Shown here piece by piece: positions 5,323 to 20,559 of a stretch of 29,996 bases of DNA. The notes under the pieces were generated by a model. The model had not been told where the DNA came from and did no database searches. It saw only the letters and a list, made by a program, of their open reading frames with translations. The translations under genes were made by a program, and so were the position numbers. The DNA is taken from the IMG/VR virus record IMGVR_UViG_3300047551_000534, positions 1 through 29,996 of that record; one strand, written 5' to 3'. Within the stretch, counting starts at the first letter, position 1. The number at the start of each line of letters is the position of its first letter. Source of the stretch: a virus.

Positions 5323-6576
5323 CTAATAGCCTGCTACGTGGTCTAAGACTTCAAACTCTTCTTCATCTAAATTCTGATTCCAGTTTGCAGTTTGTATCTG
5401 ATCAATGTAGCTTAACGCATCAATCAAATCATCATGAGTTTTACTGTCAGGGAATTGCATAAGCTGATCAATGAACAGATTATTCCAATCACCTTCGTTT
5501 AAAACAATCCTTCCATGCTCAAAGCGACCCTGTAGTGACCAAACAATCCTATCTGTTTTTTTCTTATTACCATGCGTTAGTTCTTCAATACGAGGATAAA
5601 AACCATTCCTACGCATTAGATCGTGCATATAAGGCATCACTGCATTCTTCAGCGCACCTTTCTCTATACCAACACACGTAACACGGTAATCTTTAGCTGC
5701 TTTGAGAATCCTTACTGCTGTTTCTCGGACATCCCACCTACCGTGTAGAATGTCAGCAACCCACCATCCTCGTGTGTTAACCTTAACAATGGCTATCGCT
5801 GTTTCATCCAGCTTCGTATTCTTCGTCTTATTCGTCTGCGAAGAATCGCTAAAGCCACACAAGTCCACCGCCATAAAGTAGCTACCTTCATCTGGTTCCT
5901 CGTCAGTTACTTTAATCCACTCTTCCTTAAAAATCTCAGACTGTGATGCTTCAAACGAAGCCATAAACTCTTGTCTAAAAGCAAAGCTAGACATCGAACC
6001 TCTAGCAGCTTCAATCTCTGTTGGGTCTAGCAATGGATTATCAAAGCTAGTGAAGTGCCATGACTTGTAATCTTTATCCTTATTGGTAGCACCTAACTTG
6101 TACAACTCATAGAAGTGATTTCTACCCATTGGTGTTCCAATGAACATAGCTCTGCCCTTCTGATCCGCTAAAGCAGGTCTAAGGATTTGTTCGAACACCT
6201 GTGGTTTCATGTCTGCGTACTCATCCATCACTAAGTACTTCAAACTAACACCACGCATAGTCTCTGGTCTATCAGCACCCTTTAGAGATATCATTGCACC
6301 ATTGACTAAGGTAATCTGCATGTTATTCACATGACTACCTTTAATGACTGAATGGCCTAGCTCCAATAGCGTAGTCCACATAATATCTCTAGCTTGTCCC
6401 TGCGTAGGAGCTACATACCAGACATGACCCTTCTCAGTCTGTAGTCCTTCTATAATCAATGTCCAAGCAGCTAACCTAGATTTACCTGTACGTCTTCCTG
6501 CAGCGATGATCTTAAACCTTGCAGGGTCTTTAAACACCTCTTGTTGCCATGGAAGAAGCTTAACTTGTAGATCCAT
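5323..6576 (-). CDS. terL: Terminase large subunit (packaging ATPase-nuclease)
   Basis: DNA-packaging motor, 417 aa. The ATPase half shows Walker A GRRTGKS at 27-33, Walker B YLVMDE at 114-119 with catalytic Glu119, and the coupling motif GTPMG at 147-151. The RNase H-like nuclease half shows the first acidic residue in MAVDL (Asp238), the second in GIEKGA (Glu305), and the closing HDDLIDALSY motif at 381-390. All key residues are present, so it should be active. It overlaps the preceding small-terminase candidate by 17 bases and precedes the portal by 11, a standard packaging cassette. It acts at the procapsid portal, translocating and cutting concatemeric DNA. The length is a little short but normal for podovirus TerL. 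Confidence 0.95.
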   Translation of the reverse strand: MDLQVKLLPWQQEVFKDPARFKIIAAGRRTGKSRLAAWTLIIEGLQTEKGHVWYVAPTQGQARDIMWTTLLELGHSVIKGSHVNNMQITLVNGAMISLKGADRPETMRGVSLKYLVMDEYADMKPQVFEQILRPALADQKGRAMFIGTPMGRNHFYELYKLGATNKDKDYKSWHFTSFDNPLLDPTEIEAARGSMSSFAFRQEFMASFEASQSEIFKEEWIKVTDEEPDEGSYFMAVDLCGFSDSSQTNKTKNTKLDETAIAIVKVNTRGWWVADILHGRWDVRETAVRILKAAKDYRVTCVGIEKGALKNAVMPYMHDLMRRNGFYPRIEELTHGNKKKTDRIVWSLQGRFEHGRIVLNEGDWNNLFIDQLMQFPDSKTHDDLIDALSYIDQIQTANWNQNLDEEEFEVLDHVAGY

Positions 6577-7057
6577 CTTCTTCCTCGTAATCGATCAACG
6601 TAGTCTCTACATCGACTGGTTCATGCTGAATCATCTCCACTGGAGACTCTTGTTGTACACCAGTGATGTTGATGGTGATTGCTTTAGCACCTGATGATTG
6701 TCCTTTATCCTCAAAATAAGATACTGGAAGCATCCGATCCATACACATCTTTAGTGCTGCAATCTGATCCTTATCATTATCATCTAATGCTTTATGTACT
6801 ATCTTTCTGATAATCGCATTCGAATGCGTTAACAGCAGCGAAGCAGTGAACTCTTTAATCCTTGCTGCTTCTCCTGGTGGTCTTCCTCTTTTCTCTCTTT
6901 TTATATACTTTTGTACTTCTTCCTTCTTAGGACGACCTCTAGATCTCTTCTTTTTTGTCGGCACACTCTTTTCTTCATTGACTGCCAAGACATCCTGGCT
7001 GACTGATGAAGGTAGCGAACAATCCTCATTAGGAGAAGTAATTTTAATTTCTGACAT
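6560..7057 (-). CDS. Probable small terminase subunit with two AT-hook-like motifs (165 aa)
   Basis: First gene of the leftward block, immediately upstream of TerL and overlapping it by 17 bases, the usual place of the small terminase that recognises DNA for packaging. Residues 34-64 are very basic and carry two RGRP cores (40-43 and 57-60), the signature of AT-hook minor-groove binding. A helical segment follows (AARIKEFTASLLLTHSNAIIRKIVHKALDDND) and then an acidic tail. A GAGGGA sequence lies 5 nt before the ATG. No classic helix-turn-helix is evident to me. Its 5' end borders the control region with DnaA boxes and a parS-like site, so a second role in binding that region cannot be excluded. 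The small-terminase call is from position and DNA-binding character. Confidence 0.7.
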   Translation of the reverse strand: MSEIKITSPNEDCSLPSSVSQDVLAVNEEKSVPTKKKRSRGRPKKEEVQKYIKREKRGRPPGEAARIKEFTASLLLTHSNAIIRKIVHKALDDNDKDQIAALKMCMDRMLPVSYFEDKGQSSGAKAITINITGVQQESPVEMIQHEPVDVETTLIDYEEEDGSTS

Positions 7058-7157
7058 CAGATCCCTCTATATAGTTTCTCTGCTGAAAGCAGGACTTTAG
7101 GGTGTATATAATTTTATGTATCTCTTCTATGTAGTCAGTATGAAGTCTGTATGTAGT

Positions 7158-7188
7158 ATATAAAATTTAAGTTTTTGTTTATTGTCAG
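7158..7188 (-). promoter_or_regulatory. Weak candidate leftward promoter for the late block
   Basis: On the minus strand CTGACA (7188-7183, one mismatch to the -35 consensus) is followed by very AT-rich sequence with TTTTAT at 17-base spacing or TTATAT at 19-base spacing. It is about 100 bases upstream of the small-terminase start and in the right orientation. The -10 match is poor, so it is only a candidate. Confidence 0.25.
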
Positions 7189-7450
7189 TACATCGTCTGT
7201 TCATCGTTTCTACATAGTAGACTTATTGTAGCATACAAATGATATTGCTGTAAAGACCCTTGACTACTACTGTAGGGTTATTACAACATATCCAGCACAG
7301 ATTGCACAGTCTTTAGAGGCTGTAGCGGGACTCCATTTACATGGTGTCAGAGGCTCCGCAGAGCTTTTCTATTTAAGCTATTGATTCTATTACCTTTTAT
7401 TAGATAGTTTACTTAGGCTTTAGAGACTTCCATTCTTGCTTTTTTTAAGG

Positions 7451-7618
7451 CTAGGTAGCACCACAACATTTACATAACTACCTAGACCCCCTCCCCCTAT
7501 GCTGCACTGCAACATATCCACAGGTTATACAGAGTTATCCACAGGATACAGCATGGTTATCCACAGCTTATCCACAGATATCATAGAGTTATCCACAGGT
7601 TATCCACAGGCTAGGTAG
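7451..7618. repeat. CTAGGTAG motif, three copies around the DnaA array
   Basis: The octamer CTAGGTAG occurs at 7451-7458 and 7611-7618, and its reverse complement CTACCTAG at 7478-7485. The outer copies bracket the DnaA-box array, and the first and second copies form an inverted pair 19 bases apart. Related TACCTAG and CCTAG sequences recur in the 20-base repeats to the right. They may be binding sites for one regulator; no binding protein is identified. Confidence 0.5.
7514..7610 (+). promoter_or_regulatory. Phased array of DnaA boxes (candidate replication origin)
   Basis: Five exact TTATCCACA boxes, the high-affinity DnaA box of many bacteria, lie on the plus strand at 7535-7543, 7557-7565, 7568-7576, 7589-7597 and 7600-7608. 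Their starts are 22, 11, 21 and 11 bases apart, close to whole helical turns, so all face the same side. A near match ATATCCACA (7514) and weaker TTATACAGA (7525) keep the same phase, giving an 11-base iteron-like array over about 95 bases. An AT-rich stretch lies 60-150 bases to the left. Same-strand, phased DnaA boxes beside AT-rich DNA are how bacterial origins and some plasmid and phage origins are built; recruitment of host DnaA is inferred, since no dnaA gene is in the window. Confidence 0.85.
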
Positions 7619-7658
7619 TTTACTGTATATCTGTACAGTCTACGCTGGTGGGTGCATA

Positions 7659-7676
7659 GGCTGCGAAGGCTGCGAA
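7659..7676 (+). repeat. 9-base tandem doublet (GGCTGCGAA x2)
   Basis: Two exact head-to-tail copies of GGCTGCGAA at 7659-7667 and 7668-7676, between the DnaA array and the 20-base repeats. It is short, and its role is unknown. Confidence 0.5.
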
Positions 7677-7688
7677 GGTGTATCAGTG

Positions 7689-7748
7689 TAGCACCCTATA
7701 GAGTAACCTAGCACCCTATAGAGGTACCTAGAACCCTCTAAAGGTACT
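7689..7748. repeat. Three 20-base tandem repeats (iteron-like)
   Basis: Three consecutive 20-base units start at 7689, 7709 and 7729. Units 1 and 2 differ at only two positions (the shared core is TAGCACCCTATAGAG); unit 3 is more diverged (TAGAACCCTCTAAAGG). The period is about two helical turns. On the minus strand each of the first two units contains CTCTATAGGGTG, which resembles the start-site half of T7-type promoters, but the upstream half does not match. They may be origin iterons or operator sites. Confidence 0.65.
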
Positions 7749-7772
7749 TCGAAGGTACTCCAAAGCCTAGTT

Positions 7773-7788
7773 AGTTTCACGTGAAACA
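7773..7788. promoter_or_regulatory. parS-like palindrome (ParB-binding site)
   Basis: A perfect 14-base palindrome GTTTCACGTGAAAC (7774-7787) lies within a 16-base site that matches the broadly conserved bacterial chromosomal parS consensus (TGTTTCACGTGAAACA) at 15 of 16 positions, the first base being A instead of T. A chance match to this exact 14-mer in 30 kb is of order one in ten thousand. ParB of the chromosome-partitioning system loads and spreads from such sites, normally near oriC. No parA or parB is visible here, so any function would use the host protein. It sits about 165 bases from the DnaA array. Confidence 0.75.
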
Positions 7789-7797
7789 ATAGCCTAA

Positions 7798-7819
7798 AGT
7801 GTTGTTCGAATACAACACT
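7798..7819. repeat. 8-base inverted repeat next to the parS-like site
   Basis: AGTGTTGT (7798-7805) and ACAACACT (7812-7819) are perfect inverted copies around the 6-base centre TCGAAT. It could be a hairpin or a dimeric operator; there is no T-run, so it is not a terminator. Confidence 0.55.
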
Positions 7820-7820
7820 A

Positions 7821-7850
7821 CCGTTCATCCTGGATTGTCTGCCGTTCATC
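7821..7850 (+). repeat. CCGTTCATC direct repeat 21 bases apart
   Basis: The 9-mer CCGTTCATC occurs at 7821-7829 and 7842-7850, a spacing of two helical turns, just upstream of the candidate early promoter. This is a typical arrangement for an activator or repressor site; the binding protein is unknown. Confidence 0.45.
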
Positions 7851-7869
7851 GGATACACTGAAAACCCCA

Positions 7870-7898
7870 TTGACAATGCAAAAACAGCTAGGCACAAT
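7870..7898 (+). promoter_or_regulatory. Candidate sigma70-type early rightward promoter
   Basis: Perfect -35 TTGACA (7870-7875), 17-base spacer, then -10 CACAAT (7893-7898, 4 of 6 matches). It lies about 50 bases before the first rightward gene and is correctly oriented. It suggests that host RNA polymerase starts early transcription, consistent with no phage RNA polymerase gene in the window. Confidence 0.55.
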
Positions 7899-7950
7899 GG
7901 ATACATCGACAAAGCAATACCGCTAAGTCAAAACCAAAGGAGTAAACAAA

Positions 7951-10114: not shown

Positions 10115-10143
10115 TTGACAACTTTAGTTTTCTCTGATACCCT
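10115..10143 (+). promoter_or_regulatory. Candidate promoter for the replication operon
   Basis: Perfect -35 TTGACA (10115-10120), 17-base spacer, and an extended -10 TGATACCCT (TG at 10135-10136, hexamer 10138-10143 with 3 of 6 matches). Transcription would begin near 10150, inside the left arm of the inverted repeat, so the hairpin would form the mRNA 5' end. Confidence 0.4.
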
Positions 10144-10254
10144 AAATCTATATAGGCTATGTATACTATGTACTATACTTAGTATATATACTTAGAATAA
10201 TATTCTATGTACTTACTATGTATACATAGCCTATATAGTAGAGAGATAGGGTAT
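10137..10254. repeat. Long AT-rich inverted repeat upstream of the replication genes
   Basis: Perfect 19-base arms (10148-10166, beginning CTATATAGGCTATG, and 10220-10238) are flanked by a second perfect 8-base pair (ATACCCTA 10137-10144, TAGGGTAT 10247-10254). The inner AT-rich part has a further small palindrome (AGAATAATATTCT). The whole could form a cruciform or a long RNA hairpin. There is no T-run, so it is not a standard terminator. It separates the early small genes from the replication operon. Confidence 0.75.
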
Positions 10255-17247: not shown

Positions 17248-17554
17248 GTTACATATTAACATTAGCCATACTGCTAATGATAGAAACTTTGCTAGGGATT
17301 ATGAGTATCCTCTAAGTACTGACATTACAACAACAACAGTATTTGATACTGGGTGTTCTTGGCATCCGCTATTAGAGAAATGCTGCGAAGCTATCAGTGC
17401 CTACTACGGCTATGATATAAAAGATAAGGTCATTATTAAACAGTTTGGCGAGGAGGTTAACATTGCCGAACACCGTGAATACATATATAGCTACGCTGAT
17501 AAGTTTGAACTAAACAATTCTCAAGAAGCAGACAGTGAGAATCCTTCTACTTGA
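17231..17554 (+). CDS. Protein of unknown function (107 aa)
   Basis: I choose ATG 17231 (GGAG 6 nt upstream) over in-frame ATGs at 17219 and 17228. The product MKETVRLHINISHTANDRNF onward has a first half with beta character and a Cys-His segment (FDTGCSWHPLLEKCCEAISA), followed by a helical acidic end. No family recognised. It overlaps ThyX by 17 bases and the following exonuclease by 20, so it belongs to the same operon. Confidence 0.65.
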   Translation: MKETVRLHINISHTANDRNFARDYEYPLSTDITTTTVFDTGCSWHPLLEKCCEAISAYYGYDIKDKVIIKQFGEEVNIAEHREYIYSYADKFELNNSQEADSENPST

Positions 17555-17981
17555 TATTGAGTCAGCACCTAACACTGCTTATGTCTGGGGTTTGTTTAAG
17601 CAAAACATCAGCATCAGTCAGATCGTAGACAGCAGTAGTGTTCTGTGTTGGGCAGCTAAGTGGTATGGTGGTGATCATGTGATGTTCAGTAGCATCTTAA
17701 ATGGTAAGAAGACGATGCTAAAGAAGATCCATAGTTTACTTGATGAGTGTGATGCAGTGATACATTACAACGGTACTAGGTTTGATATACCGACACTCAA
17801 CAAGGAGTTCTTAGAAGCAGGAATGCCACCACCATCGCCGTATCATCAGATTGACTTACTAAAGACTTCTAGAAAAGAGTTTAGATTCCCTAGTAATAAG
17901 CTAGACTATGTTGCTAGAGCATTAGGACTAGGACAGAAGACTAAGCATGAAGGCTTTGAACTCTGGATTAAGAGTGTATGA
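17535..17981 (+). CDS. DnaQ-like 3'-5' exonuclease, N-terminal part (split gene)
   Basis: Begins with GTG at 17535. RNase H-fold exonuclease motifs: ExoI LLLDIES with Asp7 and Glu9, ExoII HYNGTRFDIPTLN with Asp84, and IDLL with Asp107. The third motif, usually Y-x-x-x-D-V near the end, is absent here and is found as YNKQDV at the start of the next open frame. The two frames overlap by ATGA and differ by one step. Intact relatives read continuously from a WIKCMNGD-like joint; here the bases AAGAGTGTATGA look like that joint with two extra bases. The half therefore lacks a metal ligand unless the second polypeptide supplies it. Confidence 0.8.
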   Translation: MRILLLDIESAPNTAYVWGLFKQNISISQIVDSSSVLCWAAKWYGGDHVMFSSILNGKKTMLKKIHSLLDECDAVIHYNGTRFDIPTLNKEFLEAGMPPPSPYHQIDLLKTSRKEFRFPSNKLDYVARALGLGQKTKHEGFELWIKSV

Positions 17982-18271
17982 ACAGAGACAAAGAAGCCTG
18001 GACAGTGATGGAGCAGTACAACAAACAGGATGTTATCCTGCTGGAGAAGGTCTATGAGCGATTTCTTCCCTGGATTCGAACCCACCCAAACGTCAGTATT
18101 GGTAACGACTACACAGGCTGCACACGGTGCGGGAGCTACAGTCTACAGCGGAGGGGGTACAGCACTACTGCCACGGGAAAGTACCAGCGATACCAGTGTC
18201 AAGACTGTGGTGGATGGCAACAACAACGTAGAGGAGAAAAACTTGCTACCGAAATACTCAAACCAAGCTAA
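17978..18271 (+). CDS. DnaQ-like exonuclease, C-terminal part with zinc ribbon (split gene)
   Basis: 97 aa from ATG 17978, overlapping the previous stop (ATGA). It opens with the missing ExoIII segment (YNKQDVILLEKVY, Asp18), followed by LPWIRTHPN and a four-cysteine zinc ribbon (CTRC 48-51, CQDC 74-77). Together with the upstream 148 residues this makes a normal-length phage exonuclease of about 245 aa. It may be made by reinitiation at ATGA and assemble with the first half, or the gene may be broken. The last 29 bases overlap the DUF3310 gene. Confidence 0.75.
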   Translation: MNRDKEAWTVMEQYNKQDVILLEKVYERFLPWIRTHPNVSIGNDYTGCTRCGSYSLQRRGYSTTATGKYQRYQCQDCGGWQQQRRGEKLATEILKPS

Positions 18272-18664: not shown

Positions 18665-20559
18665 AGTTGAATAACTACCAAGCATTTATCCACAAGAGCC
18701 GTTACAGTAGGTTTCTTGACGAACAAGGACGTAGAGAGAACTGGGGCGAGACTGTAGATCGCTACATGGCTTTTATGCAAAAGCAGTTACTGAAGAAGCA
18801 TAAGTATGAGATTCCTCAGCATATCTATAAGACTGTACACAAAGCTATTGTAAACCTTGACGTTATGCCTTCGATGCGGTGTATGATGACTGCTGGTGAA
18901 GCTCTAGAGCGTCAGAACATTGCAGGATATAATTGTTCGTATCTACCCATCGATGATCCTAAGTCATTCGATGAAGCAATGTACATCCTTCTATGTGGCA
19001 CTGGTGTCGGTTTCTCTGTAGAGTCTAAGTATGTCAATCAATTACCTGAAGTCCCTGATCAGTTATTCGATAGTAAAACTACTATCGTGGTATCCGACAG
19101 CAAAGAGGGCTGGGCTAAAGCACTACGACAACTCATTGCTTTACTCTATGCTGGAGAGATTGCAAAGTGGGATGTCTCCAAAGTTAGACCTGCTGGGGCA
19201 AGACTTAAGACCTTTGGAGGCAGAGCTTCTGGCCCAGAACCCCTCGTTGAACTATTCAAGTTTGTTATTAGGAAGTTCCAGTCGGCCAAAAATCGTCGTC
19301 TGTCGTCCATTGAATGCCATGATATTCTGTGCAAGATCGGGGAAGTTGTTGTTGTGGGTGGTGTGCGACGATCTGCGATGATATCTTTAAGCGATCTAAG
19401 TGATGATCGTATGGCACACGCTAAAGCTGGTTCTTGGTGGGAACAGCAAGGACAACGTAGCTTAGCGAACAACTCTGCTGTGTATGATACGAAGCCTTCA
19501 GTAGGTCAGTTCATGCGTGAATGGTGCTCAGTCTATGAGAGTCATTCTGGTGAGCGTGGTATCTTCAACAGGGAAGCATCACAGAAACAAGCTTCTATCA
19601 ATGGTCGTAGAGATCCTAATCATGACTTTGGTACGAATCCCTGCAGTGAGATTATCCTACGTCCATACCAGTTCTGTAACCTCACTGAAGTCATTGTCAG
19701 AGCTACAGATACCATTGAAGATCTACGCTACAAAGTACGTGTAGCATCGATTCTAGGCACTTGGCAGAGCACAATGACTGACTTCCCATACCTGCGTAAG
19801 ATCTGGGAAAAGAACACCGCTGAAGAGCGTTTATTAGGTGTATCGTTGACAGGGATCTATGACAATCCGTTGTTGAATGATCCTAATGATATTCAATTAT
19901 CATTAAGACTACAGGATCTTAAGCATGAAGCAGTCACTGCAAATGAAGTTACAGCAACTGCTCTTAGTATTCCTGTCTCTGCTGCTATCACTTGCGTCAA
20001 GCCTTCTGGTACTGTGTCTCAGCTGTGTGGCACTGCTAGTGGCATTCATCCTCAGCATGCCCAGTATTACATCAGGCGTGTACGATCGGATAAAAAAGAT
20101 CCTCTTACAGCGTTTATGATCAGCCAGGGTATCCCTAATGAGCCTTGTGTGATGAGACCAGATAGTACAACAGTGTTCTCGTTTCCTATGAAGGCTCCTG
20201 ATTCTGCAGTGACTAGGGATGATGTATCTTCTATTGAGCATTTAAACCTATGGAAGATCTATCAGCTTAATTGGTGCGAACATAAGCCTTCAGTGACTAT
20301 CTCAGTGAACGAAGAAGATTGGCCTACTGTAGGGGCTTGGGTGTACAGGAACTTTGATATCTGTACTGGTGTATCATTCTTACCTATGGATGGTGGTACA
20401 TATAGGCAGGCTCCTTATGAGACATGTACTGAACAAGAGTACAATGATCTCTTAGCTAAGATGCCTACGAACATTAACTGGGATGATCTTAAGGAGGTAG
20501 ATGATAACGTCGAAGGTGCTCAACAATTAGCCTGTGTTGCTGGAGTCTGTGAGATCTAG
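18661..20559 (+). CDS. nrdJ: Adenosylcobalamin-dependent (class II, monomeric) ribonucleoside-triphosphate reductase
   Basis: 632 aa, makes dNTPs from NTPs using adenosylcobalamin. Landmarks match the Lactobacillus-type monomeric enzyme: radical-relay Cys in GYNCSY (Cys92), the catalytic NPCSE loop (Asn326, Cys328, Glu330) with its partner Cys339 at the same +11 spacing as in the Lactobacillus enzyme, the phosphate loop KPSGTVSQLCG (447-457), and the C-terminal redox pair CVAGVC (Cys625, Cys630). A shorter form than the 739-aa Lactobacillus protein. All catalytic cysteines are intact. It implies a host that makes or imports vitamin B12. Last gene of the rightward operon, ATGA-coupled to the small gene before it. 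Confidence 0.93.
   Translation: MKLNNYQAFIHKSRYSRFLDEQGRRENWGETVDRYMAFMQKQLLKKHKYEIPQHIYKTVHKAIVNLDVMPSMRCMMTAGEALERQNIAGYNCSYLPIDDPKSFDEAMYILLCGTGVGFSVESKYVNQLPEVPDQLFDSKTTIVVSDSKEGWAKALRQLIALLYAGEIAKWDVSKVRPAGARLKTFGGRASGPEPLVELFKFVIRKFQSAKNRRLSSIECHDILCKIGEVVVVGGVRRSAMISLSDLSDDRMAHAKAGSWWEQQGQRSLANNSAVYDTKPSVGQFMREWCSVYESHSGERGIFNREASQKQASINGRRDPNHDFGTNPCSEIILRPYQFCNLTEVIVRATDTIEDLRYKVRVASILGTWQSTMTDFPYLRKIWEKNTAEERLLGVSLTGIYDNPLLNDPNDIQLSLRLQDLKHEAVTANEVTATALSIPVSAAITCVKPSGTVSQLCGTASGIHPQHAQYYIRRVRSDKKDPLTAFMISQGIPNEPCVMRPDSTTVFSFPMKAPDSAVTRDDVSSIEHLNLWKIYQLNWCEHKPSVTISVNEEDWPTVGAWVYRNFDICTGVSFLPMDGGTYRQAPYETCTEQEYNDLLAKMPTNINWDDLKEVDDNVEGAQQLACVAGVCEI

Follow-up and report, generated by a model that had tools for sequence, protein, structure and literature searches.

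DnaA boxes are already known from the origins of phages and plasmids, and a cluster of strong DnaA boxes outside oriC, datA, is the DnaA titration locus of E. coli. Partition systems are likewise known in phage-plasmids such as mycobacteriophages, where a partition site lies on the phage DNA (PMC7157519), and bacterial oriC-parS regions, e.g., Caulobacter parS-Cori, have phased DnaA boxes near a parS of the TGTTNCACGTGAAACA type (PMC6399470). We find both kinds of element in the divergent intergenic region (7058-7950) of a 29,996-base IMG/VR virus record without end repeats, referred to here as the window, i.e., the whole stretch of DNA that was analyzed (Table 1). Unlike oriC-parS regions, the phage sites lie in the control region of a ~40-kb phage in whose records dnaA and parB genes were not found, and the array of DnaA boxes is optional and occurs in either orientation, with no DnaA-trio signal detected. 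Unlike the sites of phage-plasmids, the parS-like site is of the chromosomal type, and neither ParB nor integrase was detected in the family records searched (see below). The array resembles datA in being a cluster of strong DnaA boxes outside oriC, but differs in lying on a phage, between divergent promoter-like sites, with its boxes in helical phase and a parS coupled to it. In the open-access literature searched, outside which most subscription papers lie, we find no report of a chromosomal-type parS in phages without ParB, whether alone or together with a phased DnaA array.

Table 1. Features of the divergent intergenic region and its borders (window coordinates)
Feature	Position	Strand	Basis or remark
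First leftward gene, putative small terminase	6560-7057	-	position upstream of TerL; no Pfam/PHROG match
Leftward sigma70-like promoter, TTTACA-18-TACAAT with TG	7225-7254	-	consensus match only; toward terminase/structural genes
Second least stable 50-bp segment of the 30 kb; possible unwinding element	7365-7414		stability computation
C-tract, CCCCTCCCCCTATG	7488-7501	+	conserved left boundary of variable slot
Degenerate DnaA box, ATATCCACA	7514-7522	+	one mismatch
Degenerate DnaA box, TTATACAGA	7525-7533	+	two mismatches; in phase
Exact DnaA box 1, TTATCCACA	7535-7543	+	exact motif match
Exact DnaA box 2	7557-7565	+	exact motif match
Exact DnaA box 3	7568-7576	+	exact motif match
Exact DnaA box 4	7589-7597	+	exact motif match
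Exact DnaA box 5	7600-7608	+	exact motif match
Three 20-bp tandem repeats (TAGCACCCTATAGAG...)	7689-7748	+	between DnaA array and parS
parS-like site, AGTTTCACGTGAAACA	7773-7788	+	15/16 to TGTTTCACGTGAAACA; core 7774-7787 exact
Rightward sigma70-like promoter, TTGACA-17-CACAAT	7870-7898	+	consensus match only; toward early/replication genes
First rightward gene, 82 aa	7951-8199	+	several early genes without assigned function

A sequence-only reading of the window had reported five exact DnaA boxes on one strand, with degenerate copies in the same helical phase, and we reproduce each of these positions and spacings. The exact boxes (7535-7608, plus strand) have start-to-start distances of 22, 11, 21 and 11 bp, and the degenerate boxes at 7514 and 7525 lead into them in steps of 11 and 10 bp that keep the phase. 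Both strands of the window together hold six exact boxes compared to 0.36 expected (sd 0.58; maximum of 3 in 100 shuffles). The sixth, at 18686-18694, lies alone inside the ribonucleotide reductase gene; many relatives also have it, at about +7.9 kb from the helicase, probably through coding conservation.

The parS-like site, absent from the sequence-only reading, lies 165 bp to the right of the array, and its 14-base core is the single match in the window at ≤2 mismatches (0.21 expected). The published chromosomal parS consensus is the 16-bp palindrome TGTTNCACGTGAAACA (PMC7022226), which the window's site follows at 15 of 16 positions and the sites of several distant members at all 16. Of 14 family records, 11 have an exact core, each in a single copy. 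An ungapped alignment on the core of 34 near-group phages having parS, i.e., of the window's group, gives 1.6-2.0 bits for each core column, and mostly 0.1-0.7 bits for flanking columns, with a few at 1.0-1.4; within the core, variation is greatest at the N position of the consensus, and one member also varies at the base preceding it. This palindrome might instead be a parS look-alike, the operator of a phage-encoded regulator, as any conserved palindrome near promoters could serve and several early genes have no assigned function. We regard that as highly improbable, given that the most variable core column coincides exactly with the N of the chromosomal consensus (PMC7022226) and that distant members carry the full 16/16 TGTTTCACGTGAAACA. 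In near relatives parS is also flanked by CTGTGCAGA-type repeats, and arrays of a 9-bp unit, GTGCAGGCT, lie upstream in three members without DnaA arrays (L614, L601 and L605).

To the left of the region, on the minus strand, are TerL, portal and a putative TerS; to the right, on the plus strand, are a gp88-like gene, primase-helicase, family A polymerase, 5'-3' exonuclease, RusA-like resolvase, thymidylate synthase and ribonucleotide reductase. Consensus matching finds five promoter-like sites in the region compared to 2.4 expected. The array and parS both lie between the leftward and rightward sites listed in Table 1, with the array ~260 bp from either one and parS 82 bp from the rightward -35; elements similar to the rightward promoter (TTGACA-17-TAGTAT) are present in several relatives. 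An AT-rich stretch had been placed adjacent to the boxes, and this holds in part: the least stable 50-bp segments of the whole 30 kb start, in order, at 10158, 7365 and 7132, such that the latter two put very unstable DNA about 100-380 bp left of the array, behind the C-tract, whereas the DNA directly touching the array is of average stability. The least stable 100-bp stretch (10143-10242) precedes a small ORF that itself lies before the primase-helicase. Relatives also contain ACATAGAGATAC repeats, spaced by ~22 bp, that resemble the repeats at 7689-7748.

The phage had been described as T7-like, and its primase-helicase and family A polymerase agree with this, but the single-subunit, T7-type RNA polymerase that marks T7-like Autographiviridae was found in none of 14 family records in a search with no control detected, and then in none of 10 in a search that detected T7 as the positive control. 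ParB_N was found in 0 of 14 family records and 0 of 19 distant-member records (controls detected in 11 of 14 genomes), and integrase and DnaA domain IV each in 0 of 14, all among records that may be incomplete. One family record (G001) has a 127-bp end overlap, and two others (G002 and G003) open elsewhere on the same ~40-kb map; the genome is therefore circular or circularly permuted, at ~40 kb. At the DNA level, the first 25,000 bases of the window match no named phage. The primase-helicase is 47-51% identical to those of Zobellviridae/Cobavirinae podophages (SIO1) and HTVC103P-type pelagiphages, and SIO1 is annotated with thymidylate synthase and ribonucleotide reductase, as is the window; TerL, unlike the primase-helicase, is close to no named phage. 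Neither array nor parS was found in three cultured or named relatives chosen by primase-helicase: SIO1 (whole), HTVC115P (bases 1-50000 of 54819) and ctYwJ313 (5000-54784 of 54784). As a guide to the host, a primase-helicase scan of genome contigs gave no match, and a scan by TerL alignment gave relatives only in contigs whose genomes are assigned to incompatible taxa (for the close relatives, Sphingobacteriales, Verrucomicrobiales, Acidimicrobiaceae, Euryarchaeota and others), which we set aside as mis-binning.

Relatives were retrieved by primase-helicase, by TerL and by distant TerL (at least 80 loci each); the TerL scans gave at least 600 stretches each, and the family is therefore large. 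In the primase-helicase set, which has 34 readable intergenic regions including the window, the parS core (≤2 mismatches) is present in 21 and an exact-box array in eight, the seven relatives among these having it on the opposite strand. From 253 loci with TerL, 191 have at least 1500 bp upstream, and these reduce to 140 representatives. This 140-member table is biased in that it includes loci fetched by motif, so that all rates are taken from the 84 protein-retrieved members only, counting as an array any two or more exact boxes that share a strand and fit within 150 bp. Arrays are present in 24 and parS (≤1 mismatch) in 21 of these 84 (window included). Within the near group (TerL ≥85% identical; 31 members including the window) parS is more widespread than the array (20 and 9 members, respectively), and among the 53 more distant members arrays are found in 15 and parS in one. 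The 84 members contain 93 exact boxes compared to 1 for a reversed-motif control, and 20 exact parS cores compared to 0. Of the four genome-contig relatives in which TerL is full length and the upstream sequence reaches 3.3 kb or more, two have a parS core and lack an array.

The helical phasing claimed for the window is borne out across the family. Members whose TerL is only 66-70% identical carry arrays of either orientation, their boxes spaced by 11, 22 and 33 bp; 47 of 64 box spacings differ by no more than 1 bp from a multiple of 11, compared to 29% expected from uniform spacing, and the phasing statistic (R = 0.72) is reached by none of 2000 random sets. Alignment of relatives had been suggested as a check on whether box spacing is preserved, and the answer is divided: helical spacing recurs across arrays, but the array is no fixed element, being absent from 22 of the 31 near-group members (window counted in the 31), including L249, whose TerL is 99.5% identical. 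On a TerL tree of 82 of the 84 members, from which two TerL pieces shorter than 250 aa were left out, the array state changes at least 19 times and parS nine times; these counts do not show whether an element was gained or lost, and support is weak for 24 of the 77 inner branches. The two elements show no co-variation on this tree (independent pairs changing the same way, 1.0; opposite, 2.2). Judged from the relatives, both the array and parS are under selection, and since the array is real, helically phased and recurrent, the binding of host DnaA would be its natural reading.

The array occupies a slot that begins at the C-tract CCCCTCCCCCTATG and that is filled by unrelated repeats in other phages. 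This comparison of relatives indicates an exchangeable slot in which the array is an optional cassette, one allele among others. Slot alleles were seen after the C-tract in relatives L244, L265, L304, L249, L250, L243, L261 and L301. One allele consists of TTGTC-N8-GACAA palindromes with GTATACTGTATACA; another consists of AT-rich AATGATAATGCATTA blocks, which we take to resemble Fur boxes; a third, of GAYGAAYGG repeats, occurs mostly without parS (nine without, one with).

A DnaA box and parS also turn up close together in a scan that was not aimed at this family. IMG/VR contigs with an exact DnaA box ≤30 bp from a parS core number 40 and 26 in the two possible arrangements, with seven shared, for a total of 59, and 25 of the 59 encode terS, terL or portal homologues of this phage family; we put weight on this family share and not on the raw number of contigs. 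By way of background, a parS core (≤1 mismatch) accompanies 2 of 120 among the at least 120 box-pair loci listed, and at least two exact boxes accompany 3 of 120 among the at least 120 parS loci listed. In L484 and its kin a perfect 16/16 parS lies inside a five-box array, and L546 has seven boxes and a perfect parS. Some non-family contigs among the 59 have other terminases or a phi29-like capsid gene, and unrelated phages may also pair a DnaA box with parS. The L524, L529 and L558 groups and L550 have a box ≤30 bp from parS, with family homology not detected.

We tentatively favor, as a plausible if somewhat doubtful reading, that 7058-7950 forms a docking module, at which host DnaA and host ParB bind and which acts in cis on the phage genome. 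Host DnaA would assemble a filament on the array and host ParB would load at parS and spread along the phage DNA, and the module would assist the initial rounds of transcription and replication, by helping to organize or open the control region, and would position the phage genome with the host origin machinery. The excess of boxes over chance, their phasing, the conserved parS core, the joint occurrence of the two elements, their place between divergent promoter-like sites, the circular or circularly permuted genome and the failure to find a phage ParB, DnaA, integrase or T7-type RNA polymerase in the records searched are consistent with this, and the lineage appears to recruit host chromosome-origin proteins, with relatives re-acquiring or preserving one or both sites. 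There is precedent in bacteria, in that Caulobacter DnaA binds parS (PMC6399470), that ParB at parS lowers the expression of neighboring genes, and that plasmids are stabilized by a chromosomal par operon together with one parS (PMC7022226). Because it is exchangeable and often absent, the array would be an accessory control cassette and not an indispensable origin. Several findings count against the docking module. Direct activation by DnaA usually acts over shorter distances than the ~260 bp that separate the array from the promoter-like sites; 22 near-group members lack the array; parS (≤1 mismatch) is missing from 11 of the 31 near-group and from 52 of the 53 more distant protein-retrieved members; the two elements do not co-vary on the tree; and neither was found in the checked sequence of SIO1, HTVC115P and ctYwJ313. 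The alternatives overlap with one another and with the docking module, and our confidences in them do not sum to one; we rank promoter control alone after the docking module, followed by an origin and then by a decoy.

Control of the promoters alone, with DnaA and ParB as repressors or host-growth sensors on divergent early promoters and with the other slot alleles binding other host regulators, seems rather unlikely to us. It would account for an exchangeable slot that holds unrelated repeats in near relatives and for two divergent promoter-like sites, one with its -35 only 82 bp from parS, and ParB silencing of nearby genes is documented (PMC7022226); the array is nonetheless far from the promoters, and in other members parS lies elsewhere, inside the array. 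A DnaA-dependent origin, at which host DnaA opens the region, the phage primase-helicase loads and parS handles the daughter molecules, in the manner of a chromosomal origin, is unlikely. The phased strong boxes, the very unstable DNA 100-380 bp left of the array, the circular map, a parS beside or within arrays and the lack of a detected T7-type RNA polymerase whose transcription could open an origin all point toward it. Yet the array is missing from those same 22 near-group members despite their common replication genes, and it can point either way; an optional array that most near relatives lack is unlikely to be a DnaA origin on which the lineage depends. A basal unwinding system comprises at least two tandem DnaA boxes and at least three DnaA-trios 0-16 bp from a box (PMC8287927). 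The window has the tandem boxes, but with a crude proxy that assumes the trio orientation its longest run of DnaA-trios is 1, short of three, and the mean on the 3' side of 24 arrays is 1.5 compared to 1.66 in shuffled DNA. Skew mapping had also been proposed as a guide to the origin, and the cumulative GC skew does reach its minimum at the array region; gene orientation switches at the same place, however, so that the skew is confounded and we reject it as independent evidence.

A decoy, in which the phage DNA would act in trans and, datA-like, titrate host DnaA (and ParB) away by its copies, so stopping host initiation and segregation, strikes us as quite unlikely. An optional, orientation-indifferent cassette fits it well, and the strong boxes, of which several members have five to seven in each genome, would amount to hundreds of sites at high copy. 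Titration alone, however, explains neither the helical phasing nor the position between promoters, and there is only one parS per record, in the control region. Finally, the DnaA array and a centromere might form a host-powered minichromosome kit in otherwise lytic-looking phages, which we consider distinctly improbable: host DnaA would initiate the ~40-kb circle and host ParABS would partition it, with no rep, par or integrase of its own, allowing a carrier state to persist in dividing cells before lysis.

If the docking module is real, a large aquatic phage family exploits the two proteins that define the bacterial chromosome origin region, and experiments could then ask whether viruses employ host DnaA and ParB-SMC to replicate, position or pass on their own genomes, or whether they disable the host cell cycle by titrating these proteins. 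Natural variants among near-identical phages, which differ in the orientation or absence of the array and in the presence of parS, offer a ready comparison. Elsewhere in the window, the one tRNA call was set aside, as it falls within a long ORF on the opposite strand. The DNA polymerase exonuclease subunit (phrog_403) is encoded at 17535-18271 as two overlapping ORFs that match consecutive parts of the profile, reflecting a frameshift, a split gene or an assembly error.
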